In this document: one piece after another, positions 22,321 to 33,839 of the stretch
How positions within the stretch are numbered: the stretch's first letter is position 1
How the letters are laid out: the number at the start of each line of letters is the position of its first letter
Assembly (NCBI RefSeq): GCF_009711045.1
Contig: NZ_WMJX01000002.1
Location: 124,001 to 188,000 of the forward strand
DNA: 64,000 nucleotides
Direction of reading: 5' to 3'
Source of the DNA: Myroides albus
GTDB taxonomy: Bacteria; Bacteroidota; Bacteroidia; Flavobacteriales; Flavobacteriaceae
Made by a program: the position numbers and the translations under genes
Notes under the pieces: generated by a model
Told to the model about the DNA's origin: nothing
What the model saw: only the letters and a program-made list of their open reading frames with translations
Database searches by the model: none

Positions 22321-22354
22321 ATAGAAAAAAGAGGATATATCCTCTTTTTTCTAT
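22321..22354. terminator. 34-bp perfect palindromic terminator shared by convergent genes
   Basis: The whole 34 bp is its own reverse complement, with a GC-richer core (gaggatatatcctc) flanked by A and T runs. It directly follows the acidic protein gene. The TAG stop of the convergent helical-repeat gene (22351-22353) lies inside it. Confidence 0.85.
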
Positions 22355-23445
22355 TCTACATATTTATTAACTAAAAGACGTTCAAACTCATCCCTTTGCC
22401 AATTGTTTTCGTTTCTTATGTCAAATTTATCTGCCAGTTCGAATGCTTTATTTTTGTAAAACTCGTGTAGAACAGCGAAGTCGTAATTGTCATCTTCACG
22501 GTACACTGAGAGTCTTGGAGATAAACTTAACTTACCTTTACCGCCATCTCTAAAGATCACTGCAGCAAACTTGCTAAAGTAAAACAGTGAGAAATCTTCT
22601 ATTTCTTCACCCCATGAACTTAACTCTTCATAAAGTTCAAGATATCCTTCTTTACCATAAATATAAAGGAGGTACATATACATGGCTTTGGTAGTTGTTA
22701 TACTATTTGTTTTATACAAACCATCGTGATCATACAGCTCTATACCCTTTTCTAAGTGTTCTAATGCATTCTCATGATCATTTATTTTAGAATAGTAAAA
22801 AGCAATTTCTAAATACGCACAAAATGCCGTGATATTGTGTTTATCTCTAACAAAGAAGAACTCTCTTATCTCAGACAAAGCTTCGTCTATACGATCTAAT
22901 GCTAATAGGTTCCCTATTTTAATCTCCTTTTCCCATACAATATTACTTCCGCCACTCAGAGAGTCAATTACTTCGCCTTTACCTAATTCCAAAAACTCTA
23001 AAGACTTTTCAAAGTCCTTAGTTCTAATATAAAATAAAACAAGTAAATGATAATATGACCTTAAACTAAAACTAGCCTTAATGAGTTTATTTTTATAATC
23101 CTCTGCTATATCGAGCATTTGTTGTTTACTAATTGAGGCATTTGCCGTACAGGAAGTAAACATCATATTGTAAAACCACAAGAAATCCTCGTCGTCGAAA
23201 TAACCAGGGTTAGCATCATACACCTCTAACAACCACGAAAAAGCAGGAAAACTCTCTTGACATTCAAAAAGATCTGCTTCCTCATTCATCAATCGCAATC
23301 GCAAATCAAATCCCCAATCAATATCTTGATGAGCATCTGCTATCTGAATAGCTTGCTTTAAGATTTTAATCCCTGCTCGAATATCATCTACCTGTTTTCG
23401 CTGTAATAAGAGTTTCTGAATCTCTAAATTGTGATTTATCCCCAT
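22351..23445 (-). CDS. Helical-repeat (TPR-like) protein of the HSP90 cluster, paralog 1
   Basis: This 364-residue cytosolic protein is one of four paralogs downstream of the HSP90-family gene. Shared landmarks include an N-terminal LEIQKLLL helix, IADAHQDIDWGFDLRLRL, SFPAFSWLLE, a central helical repeat region with TPR-like spacing (HENALEHLEKGIELY), FRDGG near residue 300 and KFDIRN near the end. No catalytic residues or export signal are visible. TPR-type proteins are scaffolds, and in eukaryotes TPR proteins act as HSP90 co-chaperones, so a partner role is plausible but inferred. It lies 48 nt after paralog 2 with no terminator between. Confidence 0.85.
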   Translation of the reverse strand: MGINHNLEIQKLLLQRKQVDDIRAGIKILKQAIQIADAHQDIDWGFDLRLRLMNEEADLFECQESFPAFSWLLEVYDANPGYFDDEDFLWFYNMMFTSCTANASISKQQMLDIAEDYKNKLIKASFSLRSYYHLLVLFYIRTKDFEKSLEFLELGKGEVIDSLSGGSNIVWEKEIKIGNLLALDRIDEALSEIREFFFVRDKHNITAFCAYLEIAFYYSKINDHENALEHLEKGIELYDHDGLYKTNSITTTKAMYMYLLYIYGKEGYLELYEELSSWGEEIEDFSLFYFSKFAAVIFRDGGKGKLSLSPRLSVYREDDNYDFAVLHEFYKNKAFELADKFDIRNENNWQRDEFERLLVNKYVE

Positions 23446-23493
23446 AGCTTAAAAAAATTGTATTTCTTTTATATCGTTATCGTATAGTAATAC

Positions 23494-24567
23494 TTAATTA
23501 CTTTCAAAAAGTCGAACTGTTTCATTGACGAAATTACAGTTGCCATTTCGCTCATCAAATTGTTTTGCATACCCTATTGTTCGCTCTTTAAAGATACTTA
23601 ACATTTCAGACAAATCATAAATCCCATCCTCTTTATAATAAGGTAAATAAGTTGGAAAATTAAAACTTCTTATCCCCCCGTCTTTAAGTAAACAAATAGC
23701 GTATTTCAAGAAAAAGAAACTGTAAAAATCATCTGCCTCATGCTCCCAGATACATACTTGTTCAAAATGTTCCCAACACGATTCATGACCGTATTGATGC
23801 AATAAATACATATACAATATCTTCGCTCTTATGTAGGTAATACAATCATGAGCATTAAACTCAGGTAAATTAGCCTTAGCTAACTCAAAGTATTTATCCT
23901 TTCTATCGTCATTTATTCTATAAAATTCGAAAGCAAATACACAATACGCTTCAAAAGCTGTATTAATATACGAAAAGCGATTATTAAATAAATCCTGAGC
24001 AACGATTAAGGCAGCATCATAATCTTCTAACCCCAAATAGTTATATGCTTCAAGAGATAGTTCAAATGGCATATTATCCGAAAGGTCATCTAAAGGCGAC
24101 TCTTTTATGAGGTCTATCACCTCGCGTGCTTCAACAAATTTTCTAAGCTGCTGAAGCCCTAAAGCTTTCAAATGATGATAACTCCTTAAGCTAAAGCCAT
24201 TCCTTACTAATCTCTTTTTAAAATCCTCAGTAATATGCTCAAGAACCTCTTTTGAAAGACTTGCAATACCGTATGAAGTAGCTGCTAACCACTTATACTC
24301 TCCCATGATCTCTTTTTCATCAAAAGGACTATCGCTTTGGTCTACTTTTTCTAAGATCCAGACAAAAGCAGGATAACTCAATTTTGAACTTGGCGTAAAA
24401 TTCTCTGTGTTAATCAATAACAACCTCGTCTCAAATCCCCAAACTGAATCATTGTGCTTATCTGCGATGCCAATTGCAGTATTCAGTAATTTTAATCTAT
24501 CCTTTGGATTGGGTAGATCTTGACTTTCTAATAAAAGTTTGTGTATCTCTAAAATATAATTTCCCAT
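23494..24567 (-). CDS. Helical-repeat (TPR-like) protein of the HSP90 cluster, paralog 2
   Basis: At 357 residues this is the most diverged of the four paralogs. It keeps the landmarks LEIHKLLLE, IADKHNDSVWGFETRLLLI, SYPAFVWILEKVD, LKDGG, YYKEDGIYDL and QFDERN. It is all-helical, cytosolic and without catalytic motifs. A terminator at 24693-24726 separates it from paralog 3, and a -7 box at 24622-24629 precedes it, so it probably heads its own two-gene unit with paralog 1. The function is unknown; see the HSP90 gene for the inferred link. Confidence 0.85.
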   Translation of the reverse strand: MGNYILEIHKLLLESQDLPNPKDRLKLLNTAIGIADKHNDSVWGFETRLLLINTENFTPSSKLSYPAFVWILEKVDQSDSPFDEKEIMGEYKWLAATSYGIASLSKEVLEHITEDFKKRLVRNGFSLRSYHHLKALGLQQLRKFVEAREVIDLIKESPLDDLSDNMPFELSLEAYNYLGLEDYDAALIVAQDLFNNRFSYINTAFEAYCVFAFEFYRINDDRKDKYFELAKANLPEFNAHDCITYIRAKILYMYLLHQYGHESCWEHFEQVCIWEHEADDFYSFFFLKYAICLLKDGGIRSFNFPTYLPYYKEDGIYDLSEMLSIFKERTIGYAKQFDERNGNCNFVNETVRLFESN

Positions 24568-24621
24568 TCAACTATACCTAATAATAGCTAAAGCAACATA
24601 TTGTTTTTCTTATCGAAAAAA

Positions 24622-24629
24622 CAAATTTA
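24622..24629 (-). promoter_or_regulatory. -7 promoter box before paralog 2
   Basis: The minus strand reads taaatttg (TAnnTTTG) about 55 nt before the ATG of paralog 2 and downstream of the terminator that ends the first part of the cluster. This suggests separate expression of paralogs 2 and 1. Confidence 0.5.
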
Positions 24630-24692
24630 AATACTGCTTTTAAATATACGAAAGTACTTTACTAATGCCGTACTTCTCCAAAATTTCAATAC

Positions 24693-24726
24693 AAAAAAAC
24701 GAAAAGATAAATCTTTTCGTTTTTTT
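24693..24726 (-). terminator. Internal terminator of the HSP90 cluster
   Basis: A stem of up to 16 bp (24693-24708 with 24711-24726) with A and T runs at its ends lies directly after the stop codon of paralog 3. It should end most transcripts of the Sel1-HSP90-paralog 4-paralog 3 unit. Confidence 0.8.
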
Positions 24727-24728
24727 CT

Positions 24729-25793
24729 TTATTGTAATATTTCATCAACTTCTTTGCGGTAAACACCTTTTAAGTCATTGCGTCGATCAAACTGATCTGC
24801 ATAGCTATAAGCTATTTGCTTAAAATGAGTGTACAAATCGAACAAGTCATATATACCGTCACTGCGATAATATGGCAACTGAGATGATAGAGTCAATGCT
24901 TGAGTTCCTCCATCTTTCAACATTGAAGCCATATATTTAGAGAAATTATACACGTGAATATCTTCTGCTCCAATCTGCCATTCACAAACGCGACTAAAGA
25001 ACTCCCAAGTATCAGGATGCTTCTTTTCGTACATATAGCATATCAATTGAGACATAGAGTACCCAACTGAACTGTCATAAGAATCATGAGCGTAATATTC
25101 TTCTAATGCCTTATCAAAATACAATTCAGCTCTTTCATCTCCAATCTTATTCAACTTATAAGCAAAGTGACAAAATGTTTGAAAAGGCATTGAATAACAA
25201 GTTAATTTCTTACTGATTAAGTCTTTAGCCTTCACCAATGATTCTTCTACCCTGCCCGTATCCATAAGTACCTCTACTTTTGTATCTAACTCACAAGCTG
25301 GGCAATTAGTCATATCATCTATTACCTCTCCATCTGCTAAGTCAATATACTCTTGTGCTTTCGCATAATCTCTCAAATGTAAATAATAGCCTGTCATTAC
25401 ATTGTAGTAAGCTCGTAAGCTATATCCATTCTTGACTAATCTACTCTTTAGATCTTCTCCTATCTGCATGATCTGTTCTGTAGAAATAGATGCATTTCGG
25501 TAAGCAGAACAAAACATCCATTTATACTCCCACAAGAAATCAGACTCATCAAAATAATCAGCATTGGTATCACTTGCATTTAAAATCCATGCAAAAGCAG
25601 GGAAACTCTCCTCGCATTTGGATGTATTTCTCTCTTTGCGAATAAGGTCTAAACGCAAATCAAAACCCCAATCAATATCATTGTGCTGATCCGCCAATTG
25701 TATCGCTTCTTTTAACGCTACAACCTTATCGCTAAACTTTTCCATTTGTTCTACTTTAAGTAGAATCTTTTGTATTTCTAAGTTGTAATTCAT
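24729..25793 (-). CDS. Helical-repeat (TPR-like) protein of the HSP90 cluster, paralog 3
   Basis: The 354-residue protein shares with its neighbours the LEIQKILLK start, LADQHNDIDWGFDLRLDL, ESFPAFAWILNASD, FDESDFLWEYKWMF, LKDGG, LPYYRSDGIYDL and QFDRRN. It contains no signal peptide, membrane segment or catalytic motif. Its start lies only 3 nt after the stop of paralog 4, indicating translational coupling. It closes the upstream part of the operon, as a strong terminator follows at once. A protein-interaction role with the HSP90-like ATPase is inferred from context only. Confidence 0.87.
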   Translation of the reverse strand: MNYNLEIQKILLKVEQMEKFSDKVVALKEAIQLADQHNDIDWGFDLRLDLIRKERNTSKCEESFPAFAWILNASDTNADYFDESDFLWEYKWMFCSAYRNASISTEQIMQIGEDLKSRLVKNGYSLRAYYNVMTGYYLHLRDYAKAQEYIDLADGEVIDDMTNCPACELDTKVEVLMDTGRVEESLVKAKDLISKKLTCYSMPFQTFCHFAYKLNKIGDERAELYFDKALEEYYAHDSYDSSVGYSMSQLICYMYEKKHPDTWEFFSRVCEWQIGAEDIHVYNFSKYMASMLKDGGTQALTLSSQLPYYRSDGIYDLFDLYTHFKQIAYSYADQFDRRNDLKGVYRKEVDEILQ

Positions 25794-25796
25794 TAC

Positions 25797-26873
25797 TTAT
25801 ATTTTATAATCGCGCTCTAATAGCAACTCTTTATACTCATTTGTAGCAAAGTCACTATCATTGCGTTGATCAAATTTTTCCCCAAGATCTTTAGCTATTG
25901 CTTCATAGTATGTCGAAACATGCTTCAAGTCATAAATATCACTCGACTGATAAAAAGCTAACTTAGATGACAAAGCCAACCTCTGCTCTCCCCCATCATA
26001 GAACATCACAGCTACGTGTCTACTTAGCATAAACAATAAATCATCTTCTGCACCGATTTCCCACTCAGCAATCTTTTCATACATTGTCAAATAATATGAA
26101 TCTCCTAACAAAAACATAGCATAAGTATATCTAACCATACTATACAACATAGAGCTATTGACCTCTCTTAGTTTCTCATATGACTCCTTAGCTTTATTCA
26201 AATAAACTATCGCACGTTCATCCTTTGCACGAGCCATCGTATAAGCCATCGCACAATAAGTTTCAAAGGGCAGTGCAAAAGCGGATAGCTTCTTTATTTC
26301 CATTTGATCCATAACAGCTACTGCTTCATCAAATCGCTGCATTAAACACAAATGCTCTATGCGATAATCATATTCGCTTGCTTCAGTATTCTCCTCATCG
26401 TATGGCTCTAACATCCCCTTGTTGATATAAGATTCGCTCATCTCATAATCTCCAAGATTATGCGCATACTCAGCCATCGTAAAATAATATCCTCGCTTTG
26501 ATAAATTATTTCGATCTAATCTGCGATACAAGTCATCGCCTATTGTCATTACTTGCTCTTTACTCAAAGAAGAATTACTATAAGCTGAACAAAGCATCCA
26601 TTGATATTCTAACATAAAATCAGCTTCATCAAACTGATCGGGATACTGATCACAAACGTTTAATATCCAGGCAAAGGCCGATATACTTTCACTACAAGAA
26701 GAAGTTGCTCTCTCCTCGTGAATGAGATCATATCTCAAATCGACTCCCCATTCTAAATCCTGGTGTTTATCCGCAATTTGAATGGCTTGCTTTATCAAAG
26801 CCATGCAATACTCTGCATCACTAAAATGCTCGTCAATAGCTAATAGTATTTTCTGTATTTCTAAACGATACAC
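25797..26873 (-). CDS. Helical-repeat (TPR-like) protein of the HSP90 cluster, paralog 4
   Basis: The 358-residue protein is the paralog directly adjacent to the HSP90-family gene, starting 6 nt after its stop. It carries LEIQKILLAIDEHF, IADKHQDLEWGVDLRYDLI, SAFAWILNVCD, FDEADFMLEYQWML, FYDGG, LAFYQSSDIYDL and KFDQRN. The central part shows TPR-like helix pairs (LGDYEMSESYINKG). The tight spacing implies co-translation with the HSP90 gene and makes it the best candidate for a direct partner. Function is otherwise unknown. Confidence 0.87.
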   Translation of the reverse strand: MYRLEIQKILLAIDEHFSDAEYCMALIKQAIQIADKHQDLEWGVDLRYDLIHEERATSSCSESISAFAWILNVCDQYPDQFDEADFMLEYQWMLCSAYSNSSLSKEQVMTIGDDLYRRLDRNNLSKRGYYFTMAEYAHNLGDYEMSESYINKGMLEPYDEENTEASEYDYRIEHLCLMQRFDEAVAVMDQMEIKKLSAFALPFETYCAMAYTMARAKDERAIVYLNKAKESYEKLREVNSSMLYSMVRYTYAMFLLGDSYYLTMYEKIAEWEIGAEDDLLFMLSRHVAVMFYDGGEQRLALSSKLAFYQSSDIYDLKHVSTYYEAIAKDLGEKFDQRNDSDFATNEYKELLLERDYKI

Positions 26874-26879
26874 TAATCT

Positions 26880-28661
26880 CTAAAATTTAGGTAAAAAACT
26901 TGACATCCCTAAAATCATAAACTGATATAAAGCATCATTAAACGTATCCATTTCGCGCTTGTTAATAGTATAGCCACCTAACATCAAAGATTGTACATAC
27001 AACACATTTATCAACGCTTCAAATAATTCCTTATCATCGATAACCATCACTTTTTCAATCAACTCATTCTGCTGGTTAAAACACAAAGTAGGAATCACTT
27101 CCTCCTGCTTTTTAAAGTGTTTCAACGTCGATGCAAAAGGATTTGAAGAAGTGGACAAACTCTGAATGTTTTTACTTGACAATGCATCTTCATTAGCAAT
27201 GTAAATCGCTGTAGTGTCTTTTGGCTCAAAGCGCTTTACTTCAGCTTTACAATAGTGCTTTTTCAATATTGCATTAGCACGAGTCACAAACTCATCAATT
27301 GTATCGTCTTTAACTATAGCAGCTTCAAACTCTTGTAAGATATCATTGGGAGCAATCTTCTCAATGCTTAAATCTGGCCTTTGACGTTTAATCTTATCTA
27401 TTAAATCCGTCTCATAACTATACGCTGCATTAATAACTAATTTTTTCTGTGAACCAGCAATACGGCGTATTTGTCTATAATCATCCAAAGAAGGAGTATA
27501 GTAAATATTCTTATACGATTCTTTGATTAACCCAAATGACATCATTCCCTGATTTGTTTCAAAAGGCAAGTAGTCTTCAAACAAATTCATAATTTCAGTA
27601 TCTGAGGCTGCTAATGATTTAATGAACATATGGTGAATCGTAATAATCTGTTCCAACACTTCGATATTTGTTAACGAAAGTGTCTTTAGGTAATTCTTAA
27701 AGCAGTCGCTGAGTTCTTTCTTCGTTTCTTGTAGAACTGTATTATTCATCAAAGATTCACGAGATGCAGTAGGTTGCAATGCATTCGAGTTAATAATACA
27801 ACGTACAAATGACGTCCACTCAGGAAGTAAATTAGTAGCTTGATCACATAAATACATTCGCTTCAAGAATATCTTGTGCTCTTTAGTAGCTGTTGTATTA
27901 ACTTTATTCGGAATAATGAAAGCGACTCCTTGTAATTCCCCTGCCTCTGATTCTAATCTAAATACATCTAAAAATCGAGTCTTAAACACTTCCTTTCCGT
28001 ATGCCAATAGATCTTCTTTTGTACTTTCTGGATCTAACCAAACGGGATTACCATTTAAAAGTTGCTCTGTTTCTCCATTTTCAATGAGATTTACCGCAAT
28101 AGGCAAAGCACTACCATAGAACAAGATATTCTCTTTTACGTCCTCTTTTCTAAACAGAGTTCTCCAAGATCTCTTTGCCTTTAGAATAACTTTTGTTCCT
28201 ACCTCAGGCAGTAAATCTATTATCTCTACTTCATAAGTTCCATCTGCTCGACCAGTCCATCTAACAGATTCTTCCTTATAGAGTGAGCGTGTTTCCACAA
28301 CGATTGCCTCACTTACAACCAAGCAAGACAACAATCCGATACCAAACTTTCCAATTAAATCCTTGTCAGCTAAATCACCTCTTTTGGAACTTTGACCAAT
28401 AACTGATAAGAATTGATGAACATCATCTTGGGTCAACCCAATACCATTATCTTGAAAAGTCATTTGGTCACCGTCAAAAGTAACGTCTATTCTACCTTGA
28501 AAAGAAGAATCTATGCCCTTACGCATCGTAACGGCATCCATTCCATTTTGTAATAATTCTCTGATAAAAACCGTTGGAGAGCTATAAATATGCTCTGACA
28601 ACAGTTCTATCATTCCTTTCATATTTACCTGAAACTGGTATTGTTTCTGATTCTCATCCAT
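26880..28661 (-). CDS. Divergent HSP90-family ATPase (HtpG-like)
   Basis: The 593-residue protein has the complete GHKL ATPase set of HSP90. The N-box RELLQNGMDA carries E35, N39 and D42. The G1 box is DNGIGL (71-76), followed by FLSVIGQSSKRGD, and the G2 box is GKFGIGLLS (104-112). The middle-domain arginine that reaches the ATP gamma-phosphate is present in LQPTASRESLMNN. It should therefore bind and hydrolyse ATP as a chaperone. It is shorter and more divergent than classical HtpG (about 620-630 residues), mainly in the middle and C-terminal domains, and lacks a C-terminal MEEVD-like tail. Its ATG overlaps the upstream Sel1 stop by one base (TAATG), and a TPR-like paralog follows after 6 nt. 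It is probably not the housekeeping htpG but a specialised HSP90. Confidence 0.92.
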   Translation of the reverse strand: MDENQKQYQFQVNMKGMIELLSEHIYSSPTVFIRELLQNGMDAVTMRKGIDSSFQGRIDVTFDGDQMTFQDNGIGLTQDDVHQFLSVIGQSSKRGDLADKDLIGKFGIGLLSCLVVSEAIVVETRSLYKEESVRWTGRADGTYEVEIIDLLPEVGTKVILKAKRSWRTLFRKEDVKENILFYGSALPIAVNLIENGETEQLLNGNPVWLDPESTKEDLLAYGKEVFKTRFLDVFRLESEAGELQGVAFIIPNKVNTTATKEHKIFLKRMYLCDQATNLLPEWTSFVRCIINSNALQPTASRESLMNNTVLQETKKELSDCFKNYLKTLSLTNIEVLEQIITIHHMFIKSLAASDTEIMNLFEDYLPFETNQGMMSFGLIKESYKNIYYTPSLDDYRQIRRIAGSQKKLVINAAYSYETDLIDKIKRQRPDLSIEKIAPNDILQEFEAAIVKDDTIDEFVTRANAILKKHYCKAEVKRFEPKDTTAIYIANEDALSSKNIQSLSTSSNPFASTLKHFKKQEEVIPTLCFNQQNELIEKVMVIDDKELFEALINVLYVQSLMLGGYTINKREMDTFNDALYQFMILGMSSFLPKF

Positions 28662-31189
28662 TATCTTCTGCGTTTACGTGGACCTCCTATAATTTTTTGT
28701 GCATCTTCATTTCCATTTTCAGCTGCCTTACTATACCACTCCATAGCCAAATCATCACTTTGTTCGACTCCATCTCCTTTTAAATAGCAGTTTCCAAGTT
28801 CATATTGTGCATAGTCATTATCAGCCTCTGCTGCTTGAATTAAGTAACTCACGCCATACTCTTGATCTACCTCTGCTCCATCTCCTTTTACTAACATAAT
28901 TCCAATATAACCAGCCGCATCCATATTTCCACGATCTGCTACTTGTTTAAGGTAATGAAATGCTTCAACTCTATCTTTATCAGTACCAATACCGAAATAA
29001 TAGGCTTGACCTAATCGATAAATAGCTGAATCATATCCTCGTTCTGCTGCCATTTTATAGCAATTGAAAGCCATTTTCTCATCTTTCTCTGTACCAATAC
29101 CAAATTGATAACAAATACCTAATCCTTCTGAGATATACCCTCTTTCTTCTGCAACTTTATAAAATTCGAAAGCAGGATCATAAGCTTCTCCTTCTTCATA
29201 ACCATATAAGTAGTAATCTCCCATAGTTAACATTGCCAAAGGAGAACCATTGTCAACGGCAGCCATTAACCACTTCTTCCCTTCTGCAAGATTTACATCC
29301 ATGCCATATCCATAAGTGTAATAACAACCTAATTTATACTGTGCATAGCCAATACCTGCTTCTGCCGCAGCTGTCATATATTCAATTGCTTTTTCTGGAT
29401 TAGCTTCTTTTCCACATGTTCCTTCTTCATAAGCTAAAGCCATATCAACGTTCGAATCCATAAAGCCTAACTCTAAAGCCTTTTCAAACAGTTCAAATGC
29501 TTTTGCGTGATCTTCCTCTCCTCCAATACCATATCTATAGCAACGTCCCAAATGGTATACTGACTCTGCTACTGGATTATCTCCATCTGCTGCAATCGCA
29601 TAATACTCTCTTGCTTTTTCTGGATAAGCTTCTCCTAAATAACCATCTTCATAAATCAATCCCAAACGCATTGCTGCATAAATGTATCCATTGTCTAACG
29701 CTTCTAAGTACAGTTTTTCTGCCTCTGCTGCATTTGCCTCAGTTCCCTCTCCGTTAGTTAACATCATCGCTAACTCTACGCGACAATAGTCTGATCCAAA
29801 TTCTTCTACACCACGACGGTAATGAGCTAATGCTTTTTCTGGATAAGCTTCTCCTGTGTACCCGTAGCGGTTATAACGACCAGCCATTTCAATACCAGAT
29901 AAATTACCGCGCTCTGCTGCTAACTCATATAAATACAATGCTTTCTCGTAATCAGATTCTTCTTCAAACTCGGCATTTTGATATCCAAGACCTAATCGAT
30001 AAGGAGCATAGTCATTCCCTTTTTCCATTGCTAATTCTAACAATCTCTTTCCTTCTTCTACATTGCGCTCAACTTGATCGTAATCTAATAACACATAAGC
30101 TTTCTCTGCCAATGCTTTGACAAAGTCTTCTGATATAGCTCTATCTAAATAAGAGATACCCTTTTCAATATCTTTATAGTCATTGTGATATAAATACAAC
30201 ATTGCCAATTCTAATAAAGCCTCTGGTGAGTTGTATTTTGCAGCAAACTCAAGTTGTGGAATAGCTTTCTCAAAATCATTATCTCCTCCATTAACAGGAT
30301 ATAAGTAGTAATACCCTTGAATAAAACCAGCATAGATTACACCATAATCAAAAGCTGTTGCTAAATACTGACGACCTTGTTCTTCTGTTTGACCGTGTTC
30401 TGCAAAGCGACCATTCACAGTTAACAACCCCATTAAGTAGTTACAAAAAGGACTGTCATTAGCTATTCCTTCAGATAACGTATCCATCGCCTTCTTATCT
30501 TCACCCTCTCTTAGGTAATAATCAGCCAATACATACATCGCTTTTTTCTTGCCATTAATCAACTCATCATTCTTCTGAATCACTGCCCACATTTCCTCAG
30601 CCGACTCACTTGCTCTACTCTCTAAGTTCAACAAGAATATCTTAGACAAATCAGATCCTGTTTTATCGACAATCTCCTTAATCAGACGATACCCTTCTTC
30701 TTTATTTTCTTCATAACCGAAAAGTCCATAGTACTTACAGTTACCCATATATATTTGGCAATAGTCATCTCCCGCTGCAGTTCCTTTATCAAGCAATTCT
30801 TTACAGAACTCAGTATCCTTAAATCCATAACGACCTCTTTCAAACAGCTCATATTGGTATCCGTATGCACGAGCATACCCCTTATCTATAAATAATCGAT
30901 TTAATTCCTTTACATCATCAAACCACAAAGCGTAATCTGCATCATTCAAACGCATTGCACTGTGAATACAATTTGACTCTTCAAATAACTGATCGTATAA
31001 TCTAACGATTGTGTCGTTATCCTTACCGATCTGTTCTGCCAACATACACACTGCGTGTGCCTTATACCAAGTATGTGGGTCACTATAGTCATTCTTATTA
31101 ATAAATTCTTCTGCATGTTCTGTCAACGACATTGAATCATTTGCAATCTGGCTCACGTAATTTAAGTACTCTACGTTAAATGTTCCCAT
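28661..31189 (-). CDS. Large Sel1-repeat protein
   Basis: The protein consists of an N-terminal helical region of about 120 residues followed by some twenty Sel1-like repeats, seen as recurring phrases such as AMRLGLIYEDGYLGEAYPEKA, AQYKLGCYYTYGYG and AIYRLGQAYYFGIG. Sel1 repeats form alpha-solenoid scaffolds for protein complexes. It is cytosolic with no signal peptide and ends in a basic tail (GGPRKRRR). I place the start at the ATG at 31189 (842 residues), not at the longer frame start at 31285. A -7 box at 31237-31244 lies inside that extension, and MGTFNVEYL is preceded by an AGAGAAAAG sequence. It heads the cluster and overlaps the HSP90 start by one base, which argues for a joint function. 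Confidence 0.9.
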   Translation of the reverse strand: MGTFNVEYLNYVSQIANDSMSLTEHAEEFINKNDYSDPHTWYKAHAVCMLAEQIGKDNDTIVRLYDQLFEESNCIHSAMRLNDADYALWFDDVKELNRLFIDKGYARAYGYQYELFERGRYGFKDTEFCKELLDKGTAAGDDYCQIYMGNCKYYGLFGYEENKEEGYRLIKEIVDKTGSDLSKIFLLNLESRASESAEEMWAVIQKNDELINGKKKAMYVLADYYLREGEDKKAMDTLSEGIANDSPFCNYLMGLLTVNGRFAEHGQTEEQGRQYLATAFDYGVIYAGFIQGYYYLYPVNGGDNDFEKAIPQLEFAAKYNSPEALLELAMLYLYHNDYKDIEKGISYLDRAISEDFVKALAEKAYVLLDYDQVERNVEEGKRLLELAMEKGNDYAPYRLGLGYQNAEFEEESDYEKALYLYELAAERGNLSGIEMAGRYNRYGYTGEAYPEKALAHYRRGVEEFGSDYCRVELAMMLTNGEGTEANAAEAEKLYLEALDNGYIYAAMRLGLIYEDGYLGEAYPEKAREYYAIAADGDNPVAESVYHLGRCYRYGIGGEEDHAKAFELFEKALELGFMDSNVDMALAYEEGTCGKEANPEKAIEYMTAAAEAGIGYAQYKLGCYYTYGYGMDVNLAEGKKWLMAAVDNGSPLAMLTMGDYYLYGYEEGEAYDPAFEFYKVAEERGYISEGLGICYQFGIGTEKDEKMAFNCYKMAAERGYDSAIYRLGQAYYFGIGTDKDRVEAFHYLKQVADRGNMDAAGYIGIMLVKGDGAEVDQEYGVSYLIQAAEADNDYAQYELGNCYLKGDGVEQSDDLAMEWYSKAAENGNEDAQKIIGGPRKRRR

Positions 31190-31516
31190 AAACTTTTCTC
31201 TTTTTACAATACTATTTTTTAAAAATATTCCTTTCACAAATGTAGGCAAATGACATTGAATAAACTTATACGAAACAAGCAACATCGAAATAACACAACA
31301 CTTTTATTTTGCGATAACTATCAAAAAAACTGTGAAATAGGTAAAATTTAATTAACTAATCTAATTGCTAAAAATACAAAAAATCCAAGACATGATTATC
31401 TAATTAAAAATAAGATAATTCGAACACAGCTAAAAAAAGTAAATAAAAACGCACTTTTGATAAAAAATGCCATAAAGAAAATAGAAAATAACTAAAGGTT
31501 AAAAGCTAACTCCTTG
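31190..31516. other. Promoter region of the HSP90 cluster and AT-rich spacer
   Basis: The right part lies beyond the 3' end of the LolC-like gene's upstream neighbour, and the left part carries the -7 box of the Sel1 gene. The middle is very AT-rich and holds no coding frame or clear hairpin. Confidence 0.5.
31237..31244 (-). promoter_or_regulatory. -7 promoter box of the Sel1-HSP90 operon
   Basis: The minus strand reads tacatttg (TAnnTTTG). Transcription from here would start near 31231, giving a leader of about 42 nt to the ATG at 31189. This excludes the longer Sel1 start. No TTG element is seen at the usual distance. Confidence 0.6.
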
Positions 31517-33660: not shown

Positions 33661-33734
33661 GGTCTAATAGCTCAGTTGGTTAGAGCACCTGACTCATAAT
33701 CAGGTGGTCCCTGGTTCGAGCCCAGGTTAGACCA
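33661..33734 (+). tRNA. tRNA with CAT anticodon (Met type)
   Basis: The 74-nt gene folds into a full cloverleaf: acceptor GGTCTAA with TTAGACC, a D loop AGTTGGTTA, an anticodon loop CTCATAA and a T arm GGTTCGAGCC. The discriminator is A and CCA is not encoded. Acceptor pair 5-68 is U-A, unlike the second copy. CAT anticodons can be elongator Met or lysidine-modified Ile; I favour Met here. Confidence 0.92.
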
Positions 33735-33760
33735 CAATTACAATCTTAGGTCACACGACC

Positions 33761-33834
33761 GGTCCTATAACTCAGCTGGTTAGAGTAGCTGACTCATAAT
33801 CAGCAAGTCCCTGGTTCGAGCCCAGGTGGGACCA
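33761..33834 (+). tRNA. tRNA with CAT anticodon (Met or Ile2 type)
   Basis: The 74-nt gene has acceptor GGTCCTA with TGGGACC (one G-T pair), anticodon stem GCTGA/TCAGC with loop CTCATAA, and the same T arm as the previous tRNA 26 nt upstream. The C4-G69 and C5-G68 acceptor pairs resemble those of TilS-modified tRNA-Ile2 of other bacteria, so this copy may read AUA rather than AUG. The identity is not settled by eye. Confidence 0.9.
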
Positions 33835-33839
33835 CAAAA

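Follow-up and report, generated by a model that had tools for sequence, protein, structure and literature searches.

In a stretch of 64,000 nucleotides (nt) from Myroides albus (contig NZ_WMJX01000002.1, positions 124,001 to 188,000; the whole stretch is called the window below), an HSP90-family ATPase distinct from HtpG lies next to a family of tetratricopeptide repeat (TPR)-fold proteins, for which the name TPRx is coined here, and the two genes make up a pair that is conserved far beyond this genus. In the window the pair belongs to six tightly spaced genes on the minus strand, namely a Sel1-repeat gene, the HSP90 gene and four TPRx paralogs of about 360 residues, an arrangement that an earlier sequence-only reading of this DNA had claimed and that is borne out. 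Judged from sequence comparison, TPRx is the conserved partner of HSP90 and Sel1 a lineage-specific third component, and the pair may represent a dedicated HSP90 adaptor or co-chaperone module, with the TPRx solenoid as partner and with interchangeable second parts, to which a probability of roughly 0.6 is given. The earlier proposal of a dedicated chaperone-adaptor machine is well supported for HSP90 and TPRx, but Sel1, with an upstream homologue in 6 of 80 loci, stands outside the core.

The adjacency of the two genes was followed in a scan of GTDB contigs, where at least 498 HSP90 relatives were confirmed and the best 80 of these were named as loci. TPRx lies directly downstream of HSP90 in 74 of the 80, with the domains at most 222 nt apart, and these loci are spread over seven phyla (Bacteroidota, Bacillota, Planctomycetota, Actinomycetota, Acidobacteriota, Pseudomonadota and Thermodesulfobacteriota), the assignment resting on record titles for the first four; included are one locus whose TPRx is cut by the contig end (L073) and one where it is broken by a stop (L076). 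Two of the misses run into the contig end after 163 and 2 nt (L060 and L071, respectively), and the other four (L084, L085, L092, L095) have room downstream without a TPRx neighbour, the genomes of all four carrying TPRx on another contig. TPRx was present in each of the 44 HSP90-bearing genomes searched (44 out of 80). Among the 70 loci with TPRx as the next called frame, the distance between the two genes ranges in 64 from an overlap of 60 nt to a gap of 30 nt, the overlaps being upper bounds since the called frames begin at the first start codon. Myroides and its relative carry between 1 and 4 TPRx copies, and tandem arrays also occur outside Myroides. A search of the long HSP90 frames (L056, L076, L077, L092, L115, L119) for a natural fusion to TPRx revealed no TPRx domain. 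As a separate observation, an HSP90 of this branch is encoded twice in a Lachnospiraceae genome (G577; L168, L169), both times with TPRx copies on either side, and the genome has nine TPRx matches altogether.

The sequence-only reading had called for a search for conserved co-occurrence of HSP90 with Sel1 and the paralogs in Bacteroidetes genomes; for the paralogs it was found, and it reaches beyond that phylum. HSP90 is present in 2 of 395 Bacteroidota genomes (single-protein query, E 1e-40; TPRx at E 1e-12), in 4 of 249 in the phylum of a Paenibacillus genome, in 3 of 127 in that of a Dactylosporangium and in 6 of 127 in the planctomycete phylum (in the last three with an alignment as the HSP90 query, E 1e-80), and each time TPRx is in the same genomes. 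Altogether, at the thresholds used, 15 of the 898 genomes have both genes, 883 have neither and none has one only (Fisher p 7e-33, or 1e-23 without the five genomes, G000, G548, G570, G546 and G565, in which HSP90 was known beforehand; kinship uncorrected). In two genomes (G565, G1059) both genes are present though not adjacent. The tree distances of HSP90 and TPRx over 78 loci are correlated (Mantel r 0.866, with 0 of 999 permutations as high), and the three plasmid records that contain TPRx all have HSP90 matches too. The notion of chance neighbours is rejected by the 74 adjacent loci, the 44 genomes and these paired searches. It may be added that two PLSDB "plasmid" records of Listeria monocytogenes (NZ_CP030101.1, 2.9 Mb, and NZ_LR134399.1, with genes such as queG and fri) look like chromosomes, whole or in parts, and plasmid counts including them therefore mislead.

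The HSP90 of the window exceeds the cut-off of NF010683, the NCBIfam model "HSP90 family protein", which equals PRK14083, and reaches only 184.8 bits with the HtpG model NF003555, under its cut-off of 371; its Pfam match has E 3.4e-10. A separate HtpG-type gene with the usual SRxxLQ loop is located on another contig of the same genome (G000:C100), which confirms the claimed distinctness from htpG and rules out that the gene under study is the organism's only htpG. In a tree that combines 30 family members with 29 HtpG sequences from flavobacteria, the family splits off with support 1.0 on a long branch. A search with NF010683 at the level of the taxonomic family gave matches at E 0.001 in 146 of the 149 genomes. 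Almost all of these fall under the cut-off and are taken as HtpG, and 2 of the 149 genomes had matches above it, the second of which (G123) also has the HSP90-TPRx pair (L033). The catalytic residues, said to be intact in the sequence-only reading, are so in part. E35 and N39 are kept in 77 of 78 family members (with one gap), D71 in 78 of 78, the glycine loops of the nucleotide-binding site in 30 of 30, and the arginine of the catalytic loop (Arg301 in the window) in 78 of 78, but the glutamine four residues on, which all 29 flavobacterial HtpG have, is retained in 3 of 78, its position being taken by Tyr in 59 and by Met in 6, including Met305 of the window. Positions 301 and 305 here are presumed, from known motifs and the alignment, to match R400 and Q404 of human HSP90. 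Those two human residues serve the ATPase activity, according to a figure legend of Chen et al. (PMC1525184). The full-length model of the window protein (mean predicted local distance difference test score, pLDDT, 83.0) has the three-domain HSP90 architecture; Foldseek aligned it over the whole length to Hsp90/HtpG structures (best E 1.3e-36, template-modelling score 0.68, root-mean-square deviation 7-17 Å in the top rows), and the search of the PDB by sequence returned HtpG, TRAP1 and other HSP90s.

The four paralogs are homologous to one another, and no Pfam or NCBIfam model names their family, at most weak TPR matches being obtained in some members. A TPRx profile, built from ten seeds of which none came from the 80 named loci, matched 99 of 4143 reading frames at E < 1e-5, the ten seeds among them. 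The AlphaFold2 model of paralog 2 (pLDDT 96.9) is a solenoid of 18 helices, and on this model TPRx is a TPR-fold family with a TPR-type solenoid. The fold search against the PDB gave helical-repeat proteins with Z up to 21.6 (chain O of APC/C, MalT domain III, Rap and NprR among the high-Z matches) and revealed no specific structural relative apart from helical-repeat proteins generally; the PDB sequence search gave mainly designed pentatricopeptide repeat (PPR) and TPR proteins. The conserved features of TPRx are a C-terminal FDxRN motif and three cysteines, C164, C167 and C199 in the numbering of paralog 2. In 112 distinct TPRx sequences, all three cysteines are found in 94, none in 16, one in 2 and exactly two in 0, so that, as far as these sequences go, the site is present almost all-or-none. 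In Myroides, the core copy has the three cysteines and the extra copies are without them.

The following mechanism is suggested for the module. TPRx would bind the HSP90 dimer, not at a C-terminal MEEVD tail but elsewhere, and, as an adaptor or co-chaperone, would bring clients to HSP90 and/or gate its altered ATPase cycle, while the second module (a separate Sel1 protein, or fused Sel1, TPR, DUF4026 or YbjN) would supply the client specificity. The three-cysteine site might bind a metal or respond to redox conditions; the additional copies in Myroides, which lack it, could be specialised adaptors. EEVD occurs within the last 15 residues of none of the 86 HSP90 frames (the tails, compared by eye in 84 frames, are not conserved); any binding must therefore differ from the MEEVD mode of eukaryotes. 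A more far-reaching version, which is tentative and has the odds somewhat against it, would see in the pair an ancient, near-obligate HSP90C-TPRx co-chaperone system of seven phyla, with a TPRx head on HSP90, a metal or redox switch formed by the cysteines and an exchangeable client selector, the bacterial HSP90-TPR association being of separate origin.

Several points weigh against the co-chaperone reading. The co-occurrence figures carry no correction for phylogeny; scoring was confined, in several of the searches, to the top few candidates of each genome, so that weak relatives could be missed; and the named loci are the 80 top scorers among at least 498 relatives. The TPRx of the L085 genome (G560) is matched in part, on a metagenome-assembly contig of 4 kb. 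The cysteine site is missing in the sole TPRx found in the genomes of L087 and L095, and it is therefore not essential to the pairing. Finally, the conserved adjacency fits TPRx as a client equally well. According to this last alternative, the main rival, TPRx would be a dedicated substrate matured by HSP90, and the output would be TPRx itself as a signalling or scaffold protein. Such an account, which is considered unlikely, draws on the same adjacency and co-occurrence data, on the output-like fusions of TPRx with YbjN and DUF4026 and on the resemblance of its fold, among other helical-repeat proteins, to regulators of the Rap/NprR and MalT types; however, several divergent TPRx copies accompany a single HSP90, and the compact, confident TPRx model is a weak sign that no chaperone is needed for folding.

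As the sequence-only reading had it, Sel1, HSP90 and all four paralogs would form one obligate complex, which now appears quite improbable. Sel1 overlaps HSP90 by one base not only in the window but also in L040, L041, L042 and L044, a Sel1 gene is upstream of HSP90 in Bernardetia (L046), and Sel1 repeats are fused to TPRx in L110, a Paenibacillaceae contig that ends inside the gene. However, 74 of the 80 named loci are without a BLAST homologue of Sel1 upstream (six of the 80 have less than 2.6 kb there), a hairpin separates paralogs 2 and 3, and the number of TPRx copies in Myroides and its relative is not fixed. The homologues that were found belong to L040-L044 (48-76% identical to the Sel1 of the window) and to L046 (34%), none being detected upstream in the Bacteroidota loci L033, L035, L094 and L095; Sel1 is accordingly rejected as a conserved core part. 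Further fusions are those of TPRx to additional TPRs in actinobacteria (L099, L116), to DUF4026 at two loci of clostridia (L090, L104) and to YbjN in an actinobacterial copy that has no HSP90 in its vicinity (L163). A fusion of TPRx with an SNF transporter (L102) is discounted as a possible assembly artefact because the sequence holds undetermined residues.

The possibility of an antiphage function, raised in the same reading, has found little support, and a conflict system with HSP90, TPRx and Sel1 as a sensor-effector complex is very improbable. In its favour are the patchy distribution (15 of 898 genomes), a Thoeris-like TIR gene and a TPR gene close to a more distant HSP90-like gene of a cyanobacterium, and a distant resemblance of the ATPase domain to the PADLOC model TmtA (best E 1.1e-12, covering 101 of 1302 positions). 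Against it, the core genes contain no effector domain in Pfam or NCBIfam, TPRx and Sel1 have no PADLOC match, the rbfA and lolCE-like neighbours are, unlike those of a defence island, constant in Myroides and the relative UBA1682 (5 loci and the window), and the pattern scan of viral contigs gave only 2 partial, distant matches. A phage-borne module is likewise not supported, the phage-collection matches that span most of HSP90 being short unannotated records or HtpG-like. An unverified faecal "Bacteriophage sp." record (MT837560.1, L198) has an HSP90 of this branch with TPRx and is probably bacterial DNA, and the records of Prevotella Lak phages (e.g., MK250019-MK250029) include a stretch matching residues 20-376 of the window HSP90 at about 24% identity. 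The cyanobacterial gene mentioned above (L039, Pseudanabaena plasmid NZ_AP017561.1, 7225-12807) encodes an HSP90-like protein of 877 residues with a long C-terminal extension, which scores 382.9 bits with NF010683, under the cut-off; a TPR protein is two genes on, a divergent Thoeris-like ThsB TIR gene is upstream, and there is no TPRx match.

The features of the locus are collected in the table below.

Table. Genes and candidate terminators of the HSP90-TPRx locus in the window (coordinates counted from its first nucleotide).
Feature	Coordinates	Strand	Basis
Sel1-repeat protein, 842 aa	28661..31189	-	PF08238 E 2.3e-57, 10 stretches (Pfam)
HSP90-family ATPase, 593 aa	26880..28661	-	NF010683 625.8 bits, cut-off 455
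TPRx paralog 1, 358 aa, GTG start	25797..26873	-	TPRx profile match; without the three-cysteine site
TPRx paralog 2 (core copy), 354 aa, C164/C167/C199	24729..25793	-	Best TPRx-profile score of the four
TPRx paralog 3, 357 aa	23494..24567	-	TPRx profile match; without the three cysteines
TPRx paralog 4, 364 aa	22351..23445	-	TPRx profile match; without the three cysteines
Candidate terminator, perfect 15-bp hairpin with A/T runs	24693..24726	.	Terminator scan, plus-strand listing
Candidate terminator of the unit, hairpin directly 3' of paralog 4	22325..22350 (hand-counted)	.	Read in the sequence

The longest possible frame of the Sel1 gene begins at 31285, its overlap with HSP90 has the form TAATG, and paralog 1 begins 6 nt after HSP90. 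Paralogs 2 and 3 are 161 nt apart, and the perfect hairpin lies in this gap; in L040 and L044 the corresponding gaps hold, judged by eye, a hairpin-like sequence. Paralogs 3 and 4 may therefore form a transcription unit of their own or an attenuated one. The hairpin at the end of the unit is absent from the terminator-like sites listed by the scan, and such sites are not enriched overall (3 found, with a mean of 4.5 in shuffled sequence), nor do the promoter-like sites of the region exceed the shuffles (35 found, mean 42.1). In comparison with Myroides pelagicus (L040), the ratio of nonsynonymous to synonymous substitution rates (dN/dS) is 0.07-0.12 for Sel1 and the four paralogs, a rough estimate with dS of 1.5-3.1, and the HSP90 proteins are 89% identical, with dS saturated for this gene and with proportions of nonsynonymous and synonymous differences (pN and pS) of 0.07 and 0.77, respectively. 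Of the constant upstream neighbours, the lolCE-like permease scores under its family cut-off, and the genes 3' of the last TPRx vary by lineage. The recurrent clusters of neighbours appear on inspection by eye to be large common families (ABC ATPases at 10 loci, histidine kinases at 9, beta-lactamase-like proteins at 9 and AraC-type regulators at 8), of varying position and strand, or are a matter of Paenibacillus or Myroides synteny, and are not counted as parts of the module. Beyond the upstream neighbours of the operon, two tandem tRNA-Met genes are located at 33661-33835 of the window.

The HSP90 branch itself is already known; its partnership with TPRx, the three-cysteine site and the fusions to second modules appear to be new. 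The NF010683/PRK14083 branch probably corresponds to group C of HTPG in Chen et al. (2006) and to hsp90C in Press et al. (2013). In the accessible portions of the former work (PMC1525184), HTPG falls into three groups, A, B and C, of which B and C include Bacteroidetes proteins; the criteria of group C are group-specific lengths in four alignment regions; and two HTPG copies are reported in Streptomyces coelicolor and Bacteroides fragilis, HTPG2 having 615 and 588 residues, respectively (Table 2), with which the 593 residues of the window protein are only consistent, as the group of these copies is not named there. Press et al. stated for bacteria that there are "no identified obligate Hsp90 co-chaperones", and their co-evolution analysis, as described in section 6, was limited to hsp90A with the other paralogs set aside (PMC3708813). 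A TPR partner of group C or hsp90C is not mentioned in the accessible parts of these two papers, and no description of the HSP90-TPRx pairing was found in searches of the open-access literature, including the available text of PMC1525184, PMC3534079, PMC11687934 and PMC3708813. Bacterial HSP90 has mostly been studied as HtpG, and the branch considered here is a little-studied second version, which was never seen without TPRx in the genomes searched for both. Dedicated co-chaperones of bacterial HSP90 thereby become a testable question in a two-protein system with many hosts, and the second modules fused to TPRx offer a route to the clients of a neglected HSP90 paralog.

Compared with the known systems, the HSP90 of the module is like HtpG of the E. 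coli type in its three-domain fold, GHKL residues and catalytic-loop arginine, and unlike it in remaining under the NF003555 cut-off and in the loss of the catalytic-loop glutamine from most family members. The Sel1 protein of the window shares its ten Sel1 stretches with the Sel1-repeat proteins of PF08238 and differs in its operon with HSP90; in L110, Sel1 repeats are in addition fused to TPRx. In eukaryotes, HSP90 is assisted by such TPR co-chaperones as Hop/Sti1, PP5 and the immunophilins. The module resembles those systems in that an HSP90 is paired with a TPR solenoid, and differs from them in that TPRx is a solenoid of 18 helices with the C-terminal FDxRN motif and without a family match to the eukaryotic proteins. 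The presence of TPRx beside HSP90 in distantly related bacteria suggests that dedicated HSP90 helpers, so far known mainly from eukaryotes, exist in some bacteria as well; on the more far-reaching version given above, the HSP90-TPR partnership would be no eukaryotic invention and would have had a separate origin in bacteria.

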